Below, piece after piece: positions 4,411 through 53,472 of a stretch of DNA of 64,000 nt (the stretch's first letter is position 1; each line of letters starts with the position of its first letter). The notes under the pieces are model-generated. The model worked only from the letters and a program-made list of their open reading frames with translations, did not search any database and had not been told where the DNA came from. The translations under genes and the position numbers were made by a program. The stretch comes from a virus: IMG/VR virus record IMGVR_UViG_3300024308_000023, positions 51,142-115,141 of that record; one strand, given 5' to 3'.

Positions 4411-4736
4411 TGTGCGTAGTAAGCATGGTTGGAGACGATTGGTCTCGTAGAGATAGATGGCCGCAGTGGCCAGATAGCATTCCATTTCCTGATAGGGCTA
4501 CTGTTCCTGAAAGTGGAACCAGTTTCAGGTTGGGACAGCTAGAAAAAGAATTGGCCGAGCTTAAAAAAGCTTTCGCTGAAATGAAAGCTCAATTGGAAGC
4601 CGCTAAAAAGCAGGATATCGAAGAAGGCAATCCAGATTGTGAAATGGATTCCAAGACGATTATCCTCAAGAAGATCGCTGATCTGCTAGGAGAATCCCTA
4701 GATGGCATTTTTTCAGAAAAGAAACCTATTCGTTAA
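4410..4736 (+). CDS. conserved phage protein with CVVSMVGDDW start and coiled coil (108 aa)
   Basis: The N-terminus MCVVSMVGDDW is a pattern I recognise from many tailed-phage small proteins of unknown role. Residues about 45-68 form a coiled coil (LEKELAELKKAFAEMKAQLE). An AGGAGG ribosome site precedes the ATG. Confidence 0.65.
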   Translation: MCVVSMVGDDWSRRDRWPQWPDSIPFPDRATVPESGTSFRLGQLEKELAELKKAFAEMKAQLEAAKKQDIEEGNPDCEMDSKTIILKKIADLLGESLDGIFSEKKPIR

Positions 4737-12214: not shown

Positions 12215-12793
12215 ATGCTTATTTTTGCACTGGCTCTAGCCGCTGTAGGTGTTATTGATAACGGAATGCCTTCGGACGCTTCCGTGACAGTGACTCAGGT
12301 TAGTGCCAAATCCACTGATTATAAGCATGGAGACTTGGTGCTAAAGGCCATCAAGGAAAATGCTCCTAACGTTAAAGTTTATTATGCGTCACCTTTCGAG
12401 CGTGACCCAGACGCTACTCGACCCAATGAAGTGATTATTGACTGGCAGATAGCCTATAAAGCAATGATCGAAATGAAAAAGGCCGGAGTAAAGTATGTTT
12501 GTACTTCTTTCTCTACTAATGATGAGAAGGGCGCAAAAGATTTCAAGTTTGTAGCTGACCAGCTTGGCCTAACGATTGTGGCCTCGCTTGGTAACGACAA
12601 GAGTGAAGGTATCTATCCAGCAGCCTTGCCCGGTGTGGTAGCTGTATTGGGAACGGAGCAGACGACTAAGGTAAGTCACGCTGCTCGAAATAGGGCCGAT
12701 TTTGTTGTATCAGGAGATATGGGTAATGGAGTTCGCGGGAGCAGCTTCGCTAGTGCTCGTGTCTGTGGTAAGCTAGCGCATATGGGCGGGTAA
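12215..12793 (+). CDS. compact subtilisin-like serine protease (192 aa)
   Basis: Start ATG after AAAAGGAA. The four subtilase (S8) landmarks occur in order: VGVIDNG at about residues 11-17 (catalytic Asp), DYKHGDLVLKAI near 35-46 (His), VASLGND near 127-133 (oxyanion Asn) and GSSFASARVCG near 175-185 (Ser). Typical subtilases are 260 aa or longer, so this is a minimal catalytic core without a propeptide or export signal; the N-terminal hydrophobic stretch is the first core strand. It would act in the cytoplasm unless released at lysis. The last 10 bases overlap tRNA-Tyr. Confidence 0.78.
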   Translation: MLIFALALAAVGVIDNGMPSDASVTVTQVSAKSTDYKHGDLVLKAIKENAPNVKVYYASPFERDPDATRPNEVIIDWQIAYKAMIEMKKAGVKYVCTSFSTNDEKGAKDFKFVADQLGLTIVASLGNDKSEGIYPAALPGVVAVLGTEQTTKVSHAARNRADFVVSGDMGNGVRGSSFASARVCGKLAHMGG

Positions 12794-13176: not shown

Positions 13177-13282
13177 AGAATTGTAACAGCAAACAAAACT
13201 AGAAGGTTCGATTCCTTCGCTCCTCTCCATATTATGAGGAGCTGGCCTGGCGGCCCCGCGCGAGCGGATCCTCAACAATTCT
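13177..13282 (+). ncRNA. Y-RNA-like RNA 1 with permuted tRNA-like domain
   Basis: AGAATTGT (13177-13184) pairs with ACAATTCT (13275-13282). ACAGCAA lies at 13186-13192, in the bulge next to that helix. The inside reads T arm first (GAAGG-TTCGATT-CCTTC), then acceptor 3' strand GCTCCTC, TCCA, TATTAT, acceptor 5' strand GAGGAGC, D-like hairpin GGCC-TGGC-GGCC, and a CCGC-GCGA-GCGG hairpin in place of an anticodon arm. This order matches a circularly permuted tRNA mimic, as described for bacterial YrlA-type Y RNAs. Confidence 0.7.
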
Positions 13283-13290: not shown

Positions 13291-13305
13291 AAAAGCAACA
13301 ATTTT

Positions 13306-20651: not shown

Positions 20652-20732
20652 GCTTCTGTAAACCCTCTCGCTACGAACGAGTTGAAAGGTTAATTGGATC
20701 ACATGCAGGTTCGAGTCCTGTCAGGAGCTCCA
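20652..20732 (+). tRNA. tRNA-Arg (ACG) without a normal D arm
   Basis: Acceptor GCTTCTG/CAGGAGC, T, CCA; T arm GCAGG-TTCGAGT-CCTGT; anticodon stem CTCG/CGAG with loop CTACGAA, anticodon ACG. Only TAAACCC separates acceptor and anticodon stem, while 20 or more bases (TGAAAGGTTAATTGGATCACAT, split here as TGAAAGG and TTAATTGGATCACAT) follow the anticodon arm. TA-ACC pairs with GGTTA. The same layout occurs in tRNA-Arg at 21560. Confidence 0.75.
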
Positions 20733-20739
20733 GATGTTC

Positions 20740-20839
20740 GGCGTGTTAAAGGTGTAGGTTCGAATCCTACCTGGTGCGATGTAAATGCAATCCAGTGTTG
20801 AAACGGTAGACATCCTCTGCAAGAGGCCTTTAATACGCT
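20740..20839 (+). ncRNA. circularly permuted tRNA-Cys-like RNA
   Basis: GGCGTGTTAAAGG (20740-20752) pairs with CCTTTAATACGCT (20827-20839), 13 bp with two G-U. The inside, in order: T arm GTAGG-TTCGAAT-CCTAC, CTGGTGC, loop GATGTAAAT, GCAATCCAG (CTGG/CCAG plus two pairs), a D-like arm TGT-TGAAACGGTAG-ACA, then CCT-CTGCAAG-AGG with GCA (Cys) in the anticodon position. The break point is in the variable region. No CCA is encoded. Confidence 0.6.
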
Positions 20840-20851
20840 GTTCTTATACTA

Positions 20852-20989
20852 AGATTGCTAACAGCACTTTTTTATTGGAATAATCAAACGGTTGTCGAAA
20901 GACTTGCAGGTTCGAGTCCTGCCCCTTGCACCACTTATGCTGGGGTGGCGAAATTGGTAAACGCGACTGTCCAAACCCAATGGCAATCT
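20852..20989 (+). ncRNA. Y-RNA-like permuted tRNA RNA, distant from the Ro gene
   Basis: AGATTGC (20852-20858) pairs with GCAATCT (20983-20989), and ATTGG (20874-20878) with CCAAT (20977-20981). Between the two 5' strands lies a 15-base bulge with ACAGCAC. Inside: T arm GCAGG-TTCGAGT-CCTGC, acceptor CCCTTGC, A, CCA, CTTAT, acceptor GCTGGGG, D arm GCG-AAATTGGTAAA-CGC. It has the same architecture as elements 1 and 3 near the Ro gene. The permuted halves resemble a leucine-type tRNA. Confidence 0.62.
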
Positions 20990-21924: not shown

Positions 21925-22026
21925 ATGGACTTTAGTAATTATTCAGAACCAGGTTTAGGTGCGGCAGCGGTAATTATATTTACGCTGGGAATGTCTTTTG
22001 CCTTTATTCTTGCGTGGATTATATGA
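21925..22026 (+). CDS. single-pass membrane peptide (33 aa)
   Basis: ATG at 21925; the GGAG ribosome site is in the acceptor of the upstream tRNA (21913-21916). Residues 11-33 are hydrophobic (LGAAAVIIFTLGMSFAFIL). It overlaps the next gene by ATGA. Confidence 0.45.
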   Translation: MDFSNYSEPGLGAAAVIIFTLGMSFAFILAWII

Positions 22027-22472
22027 AAATTGAATACCGTTATGGTGATATCCTAACTACTGATAGTTTGTACATTGCACACTGTTGTAATGCTCAAGGT
22101 GTCATGAACTCCGGTGTAGCTAAGGCTATCCGAAATAAATACCCTAAAGCCTTTACAGTCTATAGAGAGCGCTATGAAAAGAGCGGATTGCCGCTTGGTT
22201 TCGTTATAGGCGCTGACTGTGGCGATCATGTTATTCTTAACATAATCGGCCAGAAGAACTACGGTTATGACAAGCATGTATATGTTGATTACCTGGCTAT
22301 TCGTAGGGCTTTACGTTCTATAAATCAACACATTTCAGAGCCTGTTAGCTTTCCTCTAATTGGATGCGGATTAGCAGGCGGCGATTGGCGAATTATGTCC
22401 TCTATTATCGAAGAGGAGTCCACCAACTTTCAGCCAATTGTTTATACTCTAGACGATGAGGTTCCCTATTGA
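22023..22472 (+). CDS. macro domain (ADP-ribose phosphatase type) protein (149 aa)
   Basis: ATGA overlap with the upstream peptide. IAHCCNAQGVMNSGVAKAI is the ADP-ribose-binding loop, and FPLIGCGLAGGDW the second glycine-rich loop, as in Poa1p-like macro proteins. These remove the phosphate from ADP-ribose 1''-phosphate or bind ADP-ribose. It may serve NAD+-linked defence evasion or tRNA-splicing by-products; both are inferences. Confidence 0.85.
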   Translation: MKIEYRYGDILTTDSLYIAHCCNAQGVMNSGVAKAIRNKYPKAFTVYRERYEKSGLPLGFVIGADCGDHVILNIIGQKNYGYDKHVYVDYLAIRRALRSINQHISEPVSFPLIGCGLAGGDWRIMSSIIEEESTNFQPIVYTLDDEVPY

Positions 22473-26584: not shown

Positions 26585-26861
26585 GATTTTCACTCGGCTA
26601 ATTCATTACGACGAAGTTAAGGATATTCAGGTTCGCCTGAGTGTTAATGAGTTTCGTGGTGTAGAGTATCTGTCCCTTAGAAAATGGTATAGAGATTTTG
26701 AAGGAGAATGGGCACCCTCTAACGAAGGTGTGAACATGCCTTTAGACCTAAACAATAGTAGAGAGTTATTTGCTGGCTTAATAGAGATCCTTTCTCTAGC
26801 AGAGGCTAAGGATGTAATAATCGATCACTTTAAAGATTTAATGCGAGACACGTTCCAATGA
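26574..26861 (+). CDS. PC4/p15-like ssDNA-binding protein (95 aa)
   Basis: VRLSVNEFRGVEYLSLRKWY followed by PSNEGVNMPLDL matches the PC4/p15 fold (i-v-x-eyKG...vdiRkwy...PtkkGisL). Such proteins bind single-stranded DNA as dimers and act in transcription or replication. Its place before ligase and helicase genes fits a replication or transcription helper. Confidence 0.75.
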   Translation: MADEIFTRLIHYDEVKDIQVRLSVNEFRGVEYLSLRKWYRDFEGEWAPSNEGVNMPLDLNNSRELFAGLIEILSLAEAKDVIIDHFKDLMRDTFQ

Positions 26862-27787
26862 AGAATTTTCTAGCCTACGCAGCTGCTAAATACGAAGAGG
26901 GAAACCCTATCATTTCAGACGCTGAGTTTGATAGGCTAGTTGAAATACATGGTTTTGATGGGGTTGGGGCTAAGGTAGACACTACTAAAGCTATACCCCA
27001 TCATTATCGCATGTACTCATTGCAGAAGTGTTTCAAAGGCGAAAAGCTGATTCAGCTCCCAGGTAATGTTGTAGAGACTCCTAAGCTGGATGGGGCCGCG
27101 GTTAGTTTGCTTTATGTAGACGGCAAGCTGGTCTTAGCCCTAACAAGAGGCGACGGCAAAGCGGGGCTAGATATCACGGATAAGATGAGATCTTTAGTAC
27201 CTGAGTATCTGCGTGATGTTTCCACGAGGCAAATTACCGGGGAAGTACTGGCGAAGAAGCATATCCCCAACGCTAGAAATTACGCGGCGGGTGCTTTAAA
27301 CCTTAAAAGTTTGGAGGAGTTTAAAACTCGTGAGCTGATTTTCGTAGCTTATGGAATCAAACCTGCTTGGTGCTATACTTGGTCAGACGACATGAGCGCT
27401 CTAAGCGACTCCGGGTTTCAGACAGTATTATATGCTGATATTGATCTTGACAAATATCCGCAGGACGGTAGAGTATTCCGAGTAGATGATAACGAACAGT
27501 TTGAATCTCTAGGCTATACCAATAAACATCCGCGCGGCGCTTTCGCACTAAAGGATATTCCTGAAGGTGTTGTTACTACGTTAGAAGATGTTATTTGGCA
27601 GGTTGGCAGGTCGGGAGTAGTAGCACCTGTGGCTATTCTAAAGCCCGTTAAGATTGGTGAAGCAACGGTTAGTCGAGCAACTCTACACAATATTAAATAT
27701 ATAGAAGAACTGGGATTGGAGCTAGGTTGCGAAGTGGAAATCATTCGCTCCGGTGAAATTATCCCAAGGATTGTACGGAGGGTATAA
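26858..27787 (+). CDS. ligA: NAD-dependent DNA ligase, adenylation and OB part (split ligase, subunit 1)
   Basis: 309 aa. The N-terminal Ia-type region (YEEGNPIISDAEFDRL) binds NMN. Motif I KLDG carries the lysine that is adenylated (VETPKLDGAAVSL), then LTRGDG, ITGEVL and NARNYAAGAL, and an OB fold with GRSGVVAPVA and GCEVEIIRSGEIIP. The zinc finger, HhH and BRCT parts are missing and are encoded separately at 28466, as in phage T5. Two unrelated genes lie between. Confidence 0.9.
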   Translation: MKNFLAYAAAKYEEGNPIISDAEFDRLVEIHGFDGVGAKVDTTKAIPHHYRMYSLQKCFKGEKLIQLPGNVVETPKLDGAAVSLLYVDGKLVLALTRGDGKAGLDITDKMRSLVPEYLRDVSTRQITGEVLAKKHIPNARNYAAGALNLKSLEEFKTRELIFVAYGIKPAWCYTWSDDMSALSDSGFQTVLYADIDLDKYPQDGRVFRVDDNEQFESLGYTNKHPRGAFALKDIPEGVVTTLEDVIWQVGRSGVVAPVAILKPVKIGEATVSRATLHNIKYIEELGLELGCEVEIIRSGEIIPRIVRRV

Positions 27788-50800: not shown

Positions 50801-53472
50801 GACACAGCGCCCGCCGGGGTTTGCATTTTAAGGTACGGGCGCGCGTATTGACCGATGGCGTACCCGCTGTAGCTGCCCGGACCGTAGCCGGTGCCGTAGT
50901 GGTTCGCGATGTTCGTGTTGTTGCTGTCGAAGAACTGCACAAGGATGTTACCGCCGCACCGGTGCGCGCCGATGTACCCGCTCCACTCGTACCACTTGCC
51001 CGCCTCAACCGGAATATATTGGTCGATGAAGAAGCTGGCGTAATAGCCGGCGTTGGCGTCCCCTTGCCCCAACACATAGACATGCTCATTAGGGGGGCGC
51101 CAATTGTCGCCCAGTATATCACGGCCGCTGACGAAGGCGCCGACGCCGTTGTGGTAGGTCAACCACCCTTGCGCACCCGTGGCAAAATCGGTGTTCGGCA
51201 GCAGATTGCCAGCGCCTGCGGACACCTGCGTCTTGAGGGTGGCGGTATCACCCTGAAGGGTAGATGTCGCCGTCTGCAGCGTCTGGATATTGGCGTTATG
51301 CGTGTTGATCGTCGTCGTGTGCGACGACACCGTCCCGTTGAGATTGGTGTAGCTCTGCTGCAGCGTGCTGATCGATCCGCCCTGCGACGAGACCGTCGTC
51401 GACAAAGAGGCGAAGCTGCTATTCAGATCATTGAACGACTTCCACTGCTGCACGACGCTCGCGGCGCTGTTGAAGGGCGAGGCACTTGCGCCGGTCTCCA
51501 GCTTGACCTGGCGAACGTGGAAATGGATGATATTGCCGTTCATCCGGTTCAGCACCACGCGGACGCGAGCGCGCACCGAACCAGCGGGGGATAGGCTGGT
51601 AAAAGTCTGCGCCTTACGAGCGCTGTTGTCCTGGCTAAAGTCGCCGCCAGCCGCACGCATCGGGCCGTTGAACTGACCCACCACGTTGTTGGCCGCATCC
51701 CAATAGACGATCTCGCCGTAGGTATAAGCGGCCGGGTCCGAGACGTTGCATGAGGTCTCGAACGACACCGTGTGGTTGACGCCGCCGTAGACCGGAATGT
51801 CTTCGGTTTCGAGATAGGTGTGGGTTTGGCCACCCAGCGTGCCGAGCGACTGGTTACCTGCCACCTGACCCCACGAGCCGGACAGGGTGGAATACCACCC
51901 GTTATGGGTGTAGACCCAGTTGTTCAACCCGTTGGCGAAGTCACCGTTGACGATAAGATTGGGCTTGCTGCCTGTGTCCACGCGGGTCGTCAGCGAGGAA
52001 AGGTTGCCTTCCGCCGTCGACACTGCCGTTTGGAGCGAGGTGATCGAGCCGCCCTGCGACGAGACCGTCTGGGACAGGGTCGACACCGTGCCGTTGATGT
52101 CGGACACCGAGGATTGCAGCGAGGTGATCGAGCCGCCCTGCGACGAGACCGTTGTCTCCAGCGTTGCGATACTGCCCTGCGCGTTCGTGACGGCCGTGGC
52201 GTTGGTCGTGATCGAGGCTTCGGCGGTGCCAACGCGGGTGGTCAGGCTCGCGATCTGACCTTCGGCGGTCTGAAGCGCAGTCGCCCGATTAACGACAGTC
52301 GCTTCATCAGTGTAGTTCGACCACTCAAAGCCGTTTTCGACCTTGATCTGGCGAACGCCGGCATACTGACAATTGACCACACCGGAGACGACGAACCGGG
52401 CGGTGGCCGTCGCCGCGTTCGCCGGAGCGGTCGACGAGACAGCTACAAGCCCGCGATCGGCGCTGTTGTTCGAGAAGTCGTGGCCATGCCCACGGGGGTT
52501 CTGCGGCCCATCCAACACGACCTGGCCGTTCGCGTCGTAGTAGATCATGTCTACATAAACGACGCCCCCATCAGCGTACAGCACCGTGTCGGCCGAAATG
52601 GTGTAGCTGTTACCCGCCCGGATGTTGAACGGCTTGCTTTCCAAAACATAGGTGCCGTTCGCCGGAGCAATAAGCAGAGCGATACTGCCCCAATCGAAGC
52701 CGTAGCCGAAATTCCAGTTGTACGGGCCGGGGTTCTGCCAACCGACCATGCCCAGCTCGAAGCTGCCGAACTCCAGAATGTTGACGCGCCCTGCCGACAC
52801 GCGGGTTTGCAGCGCCGACAAACTGCCTTCGACGTTGCTGATCGCGACAGCGTTCGACGAGATCTGTCCACCCTGCGTTGCCGTCAGCGTCTGCAGCGCA
52901 TCGACCTCGCCTTCGGCGGCGGTAATGCGGCCTACGGCGTTACCCAGATCGCTAGTGACATTGTTGACGCTCTGCTGGAGCGAGTTCGCCTGAGCCTGCA
53001 GGGTGGAGACCGAGCTGTTCAGCGTCGCCAGATCATTGCCCGCACTGTTGGCGAAGGTCTGCAAGCTAGAGAGACTGGCCTGCGCGCCGGCCATATCCTG
53101 CTGAAGCGTACCCACGCTCTGCTGAATAGCGCTGGTGGTGCCCTGCAGGCTGGTGATGTTGCCCTGCACAGTATCGACTTCACCGTTGAGCGAGGAGAGC
53201 GCGTCGTTGACCTCGGAGAAGTCCGCCGAGACGCTTGATTCCAGGGAATTTATTAACAGGTTAGCATTATTTATAGCTATATTGCTATTGATTATATCGG
53301 ACTCTAATTGACTTAATTTTTCTCCCGTAACCGAGTCTGATTGTTGTAGCTGTTCTGTCTTATCAATAATATCTTGAACTGTACCAGGCGTGACAATAGG
53401 TATGGTGGAGCCTTTAGCTCCACCAACCTCTGGTAGCGGGAAGAAAGGTGAGTAGTAAGTCTTTGCCATCAT
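47899..53472 (-). CDS. giant tail fibre / tail-tip protein with six carbohydrate-binding-like modules
   Basis: About 1857 aa from ATG 53472 (a second ATG follows at 53469; AAGGA upstream). The C-terminal end (GITLDVNGYITGWALNNNG, then VINADSFSIVKP) resembles the DUF1983 C-terminus of lambda J-type tail-tip proteins. Between lie long coiled-coil-like repeats of the type SSLQ-x-x-VSxLNGTVSTLxQ, broken by six jelly-roll-like modules. These begin LEFGSFELG, IVNGDFANG, LPNTDFATG, VPNGGFENM, LQNTEFAVG and LRNGGFELG. Likely a long, multi-module host-surface-binding fibre. The middle ~5 kb is much more GC-rich than the ends. Confidence 0.85.
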   Translation of the reverse strand: MMAKTYYSPFFPLPEVGGAKGSTIPIVTPGTVQDIIDKTEQLQQSDSVTGEKLSQLESDIINSNIAINNANLLINSLESSVSADFSEVNDALSSLNGEVDTVQGNITSLQGTTSAIQQSVGTLQQDMAGAQASLSSLQTFANSAGNDLATLNSSVSTLQAQANSLQQSVNNVTSDLGNAVGRITAAEGEVDALQTLTATQGGQISSNAVAISNVEGSLSALQTRVSAGRVNILEFGSFELGMVGWQNPGPYNWNFGYGFDWGSIALLIAPANGTYVLESKPFNIRAGNSYTISADTVLYADGGVVYVDMIYYDANGQVVLDGPQNPRGHGHDFSNNSADRGLVAVSSTAPANAATATARFVVSGVVNCQYAGVRQIKVENGFEWSNYTDEATVVNRATALQTAEGQIASLTTRVGTAEASITTNATAVTNAQGSIATLETTVSSQGGSITSLQSSVSDINGTVSTLSQTVSSQGGSITSLQTAVSTAEGNLSSLTTRVDTGSKPNLIVNGDFANGLNNWVYTHNGWYSTLSGSWGQVAGNQSLGTLGGQTHTYLETEDIPVYGGVNHTVSFETSCNVSDPAAYTYGEIVYWDAANNVVGQFNGPMRAAGGDFSQDNSARKAQTFTSLSPAGSVRARVRVVLNRMNGNIIHFHVRQVKLETGASASPFNSAASVVQQWKSFNDLNSSFASLSTTVSSQGGSISTLQQSYTNLNGTVSSHTTTINTHNANIQTLQTATSTLQGDTATLKTQVSAGAGNLLPNTDFATGAQGWLTYHNGVGAFVSGRDILGDNWRPPNEHVYVLGQGDANAGYYASFFIDQYIPVEAGKWYEWSGYIGAHRCGGNILVQFFDSNNTNIANHYGTGYGPGSYSGYAIGQYARPYLKMQTPAGAVSCRMVFEKAATSSGNDSYLVILRPQMKEVFETSVSPAAYTIGGAGAVLSQQATALSTLNSSFASLETRVSSAEGSVTSLSQSMTSANGSISSLQGSVNSLNGSVSTLQQSSSTQAGQISTLQSTVQTQGSSISSNGQAITTLQGSVANLNNVVSASSSPNLVPNGGFENMLRGWEQNGTWGVYTWAWGRYAEVNQPFGNTSNDYVFFYITSTIFPCAPGPNGHAQSFDYELSGDGLICYGEMVWYDSNQGYITQTKTPDLGPKGFDQSGNSRVRHVHTPPNNASWARSRFVVAIPPQRVLTGGRVRQMKVELGSTSTPYSGEATAAQMFQAYADLNSSHASLETTVSSQGGSISSLQSTTSTLNGTVSSLSNTVSAQGTSISNLQSVQATQGGTISTLLQRVTVGGNLLQNTEFAVGTEGWGFYSHDSGNTSGFTWGRDGAGDDWRPEGEHNLFINQQDNVNWRAAQWYSSHVSVVGGRWYEASVYAATHRCYCNMKIEWYDANGTNVGVSDGPRSDSYPGFAQSNGGRTIGSYQRLWVKAQAPANATRALLNWVKHGTSQDGGWNGATDSWGWMVRPQIAEVYSDTNSPTAYFPGRTSASFTLQQTSINSLNGQYSSLSQTVATQGSSISSQATSISNLEGTQASLSQTVQSQGSSISTLQTATSNLQGDTATLRTQVTSGNPNLLRNGGFELGNLDYWSAYNASFSTYGGTDTWGTYAVNGNNVPDNSWTYIESNPVNIERDWYTLTCDVGYFLSGTGHTYLELIWLNSSGGYLATSGGPAISPGRNFSSDGSTRRDLKVTAFAPEGAAKVQARIIWYKGSGTAQSMHVRQVKLERGQNATPYTAEASARQSFEMVNTLNGQYASLNSTVSTQGVSISQNITAISTAQNGVNTLMGKAGITLDVNGYITGWALNNNGSSGNMVINADSFSIVKPGGGARTEYNNGAWKVFDASGIKRVQLGNLDA
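48180..53250 (-). repeat. GC-rich repetitive segment with six tandem module repeats
   Basis: Within the fibre gene, the code for coiled-coil spacers and jelly-roll modules repeats about six times at near-regular spacing. By eye the G+C content is far above that of both gene ends and all neighbours, with a sharp switch near 48180 and 53250. Confidence 0.8.

Follow-up and report, generated by a model that had tools for sequence, protein, structure and literature searches.

The RNA encoded at positions 20852–20989 is best read as a YrlA-type phage Y RNA, the effector of which would be a circularly permuted, anticodon-less tRNA-Leu, docked on a Ro-like DUF2828/DUF7788 protein and tethering a tRNA-recognizing protein; we give this reading a probability of roughly 0.7. 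The window analysed, 64,000 nucleotides in length, is part of a 115,141-base IMG/VR virus record (IMGVR_UViG_3300024308_000023, positions 51,142 to 115,141) and covers a tRNA-rich region, with 30 tRNAs called by ARAGORN. On comparative sequence evidence the RNA is real and belongs to a class that is widespread in phages and poorly annotated; its class, structure, covariation and association with a protein gene are drawn from that comparison, and from them we infer the binding, the partner and the function of the 20852 RNA.

Anatomy of the 20852 RNA

As judged from its sequence, the RNA has the make-up of a class II leucine-type tRNA in circularly permuted form: the anticodon stem is retained, and the anticodon loop opens onto a Ro-type CAGCA stem. 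Its first half runs through AGATTGCTA, the CAGCA bulge, ACGGT, GTC-GAAA-GAC, the T arm, CCCTTGC, A and CCA, and its second half through CTTAT, GCTGGGG, the D arm GCGAAATTGGTAAACGC, ACTGT and TGGCAATCT. The individual parts are as follows.

20852–20860, + strand: closing (putative Ro-docking) helix, 5′ strand AGATTGCTA, pairing with 20981–20989
20861–20873, + strand: asymmetric bulge holding ACAGCA (20861–20866); CAGCA is invariant in 18 aligned relatives, which were found with a search pattern that already included CAGCA
20874–20878, + strand: proposed inner helix, 5′ strand ATTGG, pairing with CCAAT at 20977–20981; unsupported
20888–20892, + strand: anticodon stem, 3′ strand ACGGT, pairing with 20966–20970
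20894–20903, + strand: long (class II) variable arm GTC-GAAA-GAC, read from the sequence
20906–20922, + strand: T arm GCAGG-TTCGAGT-CCTGC, conserved in covariance model R1
20923–20929, + strand: acceptor stem, 3′ strand CCCTTGC, forming 6/7 pairs with 20939–20945
20930–20933, + strand: discriminator A73 followed by the encoded CCA, both within the closed loop of the acceptor
20934–20938, + strand: linker CTTAT, from CCA to the 5′ acceptor strand
20939–20945, + strand: acceptor stem, 5′ strand GCTGGGG, pairing with 20923–20929
20948–20964, + strand: D arm GCG-AAATTGGTAAA-CGC of the tRNA-Leu type; TGGCGAAATTGGTAAACGC fits the Leu-class consensus
20966–20970, + strand: anticodon stem, 5′ strand ACTGT; the Ro stem stands in place of the anticodon loop
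20981–20989, + strand: closing helix, 3′ strand TGGCAATCT, then G, pairing with 20852–20860

Every element that a first-pass annotation of this DNA had named is present where it had been placed, and the anatomy is completed here by two elements that had been missed, the anticodon stem (ACTGT/ACGGT) and the variable arm. The closing helix comprises 9 bp including one G-U pair: AGATTGC/GCAATCT (20852–20858/20983–20989) is extended by T20859-G20982 and A20860-T20981. The second closing helix that had been proposed, ATTGG/CCAAT, occurs in the minimum-energy fold of the RNA; no counterpart of this 5-bp helix was seen among the relatives compared, it is not a common feature of the class, and it may be a chance pairing. 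Variable arms resembling GTCGAAAGAC are found in several relatives (L155, L284, L061 and L146). With the acceptor closed by a short loop, the amino-acid end of the tRNA-like module appears to be sealed. In native order ARAGORN reports no tRNA, and from the rotated segment it reports a tRNA with an intron. A recent copy of a tRNA-Leu gene from the same genome was rejected as the source of the RNA, as none of the tRNAs in the window is a conspicuous candidate for the origin of both halves.

Homologues and covariation

Leucine-type RNAs in other phages were found with a DNA pattern scan, and 18 such RNAs, none of them from the window, were used to build covariance model R1. R1 matches the window at 20851–20989 with 91 bits (E = 6.4e-15), in agreement with the earlier proposal that a permuted tRNA module is part of a Ro-type RNA. 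The search of further phages that had been recommended produced 27 matches of at least 70 bits over 59 sources, a range within which the window RNA lies. The same layout is shared by many phages that are not related to one another; standard annotation either passes over it or labels it an odd tRNA.

Across 25 leucine-type RNAs, which have 19 distinct 5′ strands, pairing of the closing helix amounts to 100% for own partners and 53% for swapped ones; the former value is in part inflated, as most relatives had been selected for having a stem. The acceptor helix is 94% paired across relatives (46% with swapped partners), as is the anticodon stem (57% when swapped), whose partner strand was taken as the best-matching one. 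In the alignment, RNAalifold found changes on both sides in 10 of 14 pairs, in the T arm, acceptor and D arm. The closing helix shows abundant compensatory changes, the lack of which had been named in advance as counter-evidence. As for synteny, no viral relatives were found for the RNase H-like ORF upstream; the HD-domain ORF downstream has eight relatives, and only one distant case (the contig of L054, identical to L115) has a leucine-type RNA at the matching place.

Several relatives reside in named phages. Sinorhizobium phage phiM12 encodes a permuted RNA of the leucine type about 2.5 kb upstream of the phage's DUF2828 gene; this RNA has A-CCA and a closing helix of 21 bp (R1 66 bits, fold z −6.7). 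Near the same gene are two more CAGCA RNAs, whose closing helices measure 14 and 21 bp (L319:4041–4133 and 4575–4713). Permuted relatives are also present in Escherichia phage nataliec, Klebsiella phage KP13-16, Cronobacter phage S13 and Mycobacterium phage JoeDirt. For S13 (L318:9857–10099) and Aeromonas phage Aeh1 (L320:10193–10314), public records annotate 113–122-nt ‘tRNAs’ that overlap CAGCA or permuted RNAs.

The presumed partner protein

The candidate partner is encoded 5.3 kb from the 20852 RNA gene.

14033–15502, + strand: presumed partner gene, encoding a DUF2828 + DUF7788 Ro-like protein (Pfam; PHROG 850, ‘RNA-binding protein’) with a vWA/MIDAS DNSGSM motif

The first-pass annotation had spoken of a Ro gene. 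Its choice of name is echoed in the mycobacteriophage relatives, which are annotated ‘Ro-like RNA binding protein’, and the protein shares with Ro60/Rsr a C-terminal vWA domain with a MIDAS, the DNSGSM motif of which is read in the translation. The name is not supported by the TROVE domain (PF05731), which has no match in the record: unlike Ro60/Rsr (TROVE + vWA_Ro60), the protein is assigned by Pfam to DUF2828 + DUF7788, and hhalign against a TROVE protein gave a weak match confined to the vWA part (17.8% probability, E = 0.0014). Relatives of the DUF2828 protein occur in 681 phage records, and two bacterial MAG contigs encode one as well.

Loci around these relatives, plus others, contain many CAGCA RNAs. 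Conversely, a DUF2828 relative is encoded on 17 of the 21 contigs found by RNA alone (12 of them strong) versus 8 of 30 controls, an association that may partly reflect large tRNA-rich phages, as several controls also carry the protein. In Listeria phage A511, three CAGCA stem RNAs stand directly upstream of the DUF2828 gene. They match the place of three highly transcribed non-coding regions that, in PMC12282133, are described for a P100-like Listeria phage upstream of a gene with Rsr as its best HHpred match, and which its authors suggest to be Y RNAs; the Rsr-matched protein of that account would be a relative of A511 gp57.

In front of the DUF2828 gene in the window, a short CAGCA stem (TGTATTC/GAATACA) at 13966–14030 stops 2 bases short of the ATG and has the probable ribosome-binding site within it, an arrangement that suggests autoregulation by the DUF2828 protein. 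Near the DUF2828 gene, Serratia phage BF encodes an RNA ligase and a tRNA nucleotidyltransferase, and S13 encodes a tRNA nucleotidyltransferase. Macro or Appr-1-p genes are found near DUF2828 in phiM12 and BF, and the window contains a macro-domain protein gene (Pfam PF01661) at 22014–22472. These neighbours hint at RNA repair.

Sister RNAs in the window

Three sister RNAs lie close to the presumed partner gene.

13177–13282, + strand: permuted T-acceptor-D RNA with a 7/7 acceptor and T-CCA in the loop (R1 38 bits, E = 3.2e-5)
13305–13401, + strand: non-permuted RNA with a tRNA-Lys-like D-AC-T within a Ro stem at the acceptor side
13415–13524, + strand: permuted RNA in which the anticodon arm is complete (loop CTTCAAC) and the Ro stem lies in the variable region (fold z −3.0)

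The kinship of the 20852 RNA with the RNAs at 13177 and 13415, noted in the first-pass annotation, is supported. The loop CTTCAAC would give the anticodon UCA. The RNA at 13305–13401 is called tRNA-Lys by ARAGORN and Rfam, but it is surrounded by a 9-bp CAGCA stem, has a poor acceptor and lacks CCA; it is probably a non-permuted Y-type RNA misannotated as a tRNA. Taking the class as a whole, a rough automatic sorting places the Ro-stem attachment at the acceptor side in 30 non-redundant RNAs, at the anticodon loop in 92 and in the variable region in 7, to which 13415 in the window is added.

Comparison with YrlA and other known systems

The 20852 RNA has in common with YrlA (Rfam RF02553) the closing stem, T arm, closed acceptor hairpin and D arm, in this order, together with the circular permutation of a tRNA and a Ro-family partner, presumed here. 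The hallmarks of YrlA are binding of a Ro-family protein and modification by tRNA enzymes such as TruB and DusA. According to PMC8394870, YrlA serves to tether Rsr to PNPase, and tRNA enzymes modify the tRNA-like domain of YrlA; PMC11472068 describes the YrlA structure 6CU1 as a circular permutation of tRNA. Unlike YrlA, the 20852 RNA has a long class II variable arm, a leucine-type D arm and an encoded N-CCA in the acceptor loop, its presumed partner is a DUF2828 rather than a TROVE protein, and it resides in a tRNA array with several sibling RNAs.

The Rfam YrlA model gives the 20852 RNA a local match only, with 17.5 bits (E = 0.52) against a gathering threshold of 69 bits. Other permuted phage RNAs match the full model, the best with 49.9 bits (E = 7e-9), also below the gathering score; the background for these scores is set by bacterial matches of about 26–44 bits. 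A search of 295 bacterial genomes returned only sub-threshold matches, which resemble neighbouring tRNA genes. At its own threshold Rfam does not report the phage CAGCA/permuted RNAs.

The permuted tRNA genes of algae and archaea likewise have the 3′ half before the 5′ half and a short linker joining the acceptor ends. Distinct from them, the 20852 RNA has a conserved outer stem, probably for protein docking, no anticodon loop and an unconserved CCA, and no sign of a tRNA being spliced out was seen. YrlA-type RNAs of phages were already reported in 2014 by Chen et al., as cited in PMC12282133, and in the latter paper the putative Y RNAs of Listeria phage CKA15 are highly transcribed, upstream of an Rsr-like gene and beside phage tRNA genes; in the related A511, the RNAs are short stems or longer non-leucine forms, in contrast to the 20852 RNA. 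As far as the literature searched shows, the leucine class II form with CCA, the DUF2828 link, the number per phage and the joining of one stem to tRNA modules at three points are new, although published YrlA RNAs may share some of these traits.

A probable Ro-docked scaffold

Because its architecture is the same as that of YrlA, a Ro-docked scaffold is the best explanation of the 20852 RNA, whose most likely role is that of the effector module of a phage Ro–Y RNA particle. The 9-bp closing helix and CAGCA bulge would dock the Ro-like protein (DUF2828/DUF7788, 14033–15502), and the anticodon stem would stack on the closing helix and thereby display the tRNA elbow, formed by the T and D loops and the long variable arm; the closed acceptor could not be charged. 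The particle would join the Ro ring with a tRNA-recognizing protein, as YrlA tethers Rsr to PNPase, and may act in RNA quality control or turnover during infection.

The reading that fares next best holds the anticodon-less, sealed tRNA-Leu-shaped module to be a decoy or sponge that occupies host proteins attacking or sensing tRNAs, with the Ro-like protein only stabilizing it. The tRNA-rich phage region in which the RNA lies, the use of phage tRNAs against tRNA-targeting defences (PMC10264068, PMC11555353) and the proposal that YrlA inhibits anticodon nucleases (PMC7790460) would all fit. However, the anticodon loop, where anticodon nucleases cut, is missing from the module, and a shared Ro scaffold fits better than one decoy target because the siblings mimic several tRNA types or, as short stems, none. 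We regard a decoy as unlikely.

The findings indicate that whole sets of Y RNAs on different tRNA types are carried by phages with DUF2828 proteins, in or beside tRNA arrays, where these RNAs are missed by Rfam or annotated as overlong tRNAs, and DUF2828, a widespread and unexplained phage protein family, gains a likely RNA ligand. Relatives in culturable phages (phiM12, nataliec, JoeDirt and A511) make the role of a phage Ro–Y particle directly testable.

The encoded CCA

The CCA within the permuted acceptor had been taken to suggest either an origin from a tRNA or use as a real tRNA end. N-CCA occurs at the tRNA 3′-end position, one base past the 3′ acceptor strand, in 20 of 99 non-redundant permuted RNAs, and at none of the other five offsets tested (0/99); CCA is also encoded by 31 of the 32 tRNA genes checked in the window. 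Placed at the tRNA 3′ end, as in these genes, the CCA therefore reflects tRNA ancestry, so that the first suggestion stands. The second is not supported: four fifths of the relatives are without N-CCA, which argues against its use as a real tRNA end, and because acceptor loops moreover range from 0 to 21 nt, many being short linkers without CCA, the triplet appears dispensable for the common function.

A wider proposal is that phages make Ro-docked RNAs by joining the CAGCA stem to tRNAs at three points and that those with A73-CCA, the 20852 RNA among them, are opened by RNase P into chargeable, anticodon-less, two-piece tRNAs; taken as a whole, we consider it very unlikely. The narrower idea of a permuted or split tRNA gene, from which RNase P and 3′ nucleases would generate a tRNA-Leu in two pieces, kept in contact by the closing helix and open to charging at the CCA, draws on the correctly placed A73-CCA, on the intron-containing tRNA that ARAGORN sees in the rotated sequence and on bacterial LeuRS, which is known to do without the anticodon. 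It is rendered highly improbable by the absence of N-CCA in about 80% of relatives, in which the discriminator base and linker length vary, and by position 33, which in the tRNA-Leu register (anticodon stem 27–31/39–43) would be C and not U. Rejoined, the tRNA does not form a proper 7-nt anticodon loop, and the intron call of ARAGORN yields a Pro anticodon with no evident meaning. Among RNA-repair genes, no RtcB was found in the record, where RNA_ligase has a single match, below threshold and located at the NAD-dependent DNA ligase gene around 26858–27784.

Excess over chance

The folding energy of the whole RNA is unremarkable (z −0.8) and uninformative as proof, and ACAGCA by itself is not in excess (35 occurrences, 31 expected by chance). 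What exceeds chance is the combination of elements, not energy or ACAGCA alone. In the first 55 loci and the window's record, stems adjoining CAGCA number 146 on the coding strand versus 8 on the reverse, and those with a T loop number 43 (non-redundant) versus 0. In loci that were retrieved by protein or otherwise without regard to the RNA motif, eight named phages included, CAGCA occurs within the upstream 60 nt of 14 of 17 strict permuted T-acceptor-D hairpins and ranks first there of all 1024 5-mers. That decayed tRNA genes of the array were merely juxtaposed by chance, as the tRNA pieces in the region (such as the D-arm-less match at 20652–20729) and the ordinary fold energy might suggest, is hardly credible given the E value of the R1 match, compensatory changes in dozens of phages and acceptor pairing that spans the permuted joint, and is already contradicted by the homologues.

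Neighbouring features

Directly upstream, at 20737–20840, is another permuted tRNA-like RNA, comprising a T arm, acceptor, D arm and an anticodon arm with GCA; it is closed by a helix of at least 11 bp (CGTGTTAAAGG/CCTTTAATACG) without a CAGCA bulge. The tRNA match at 20652–20729 scores below threshold (24.9 bits); its anticodon loop contains ACG, and it seems to have no D arm. Amid the tRNA genes further upstream, a short ORF at 12215–12793 matches subtilase peptidases (PF00082).
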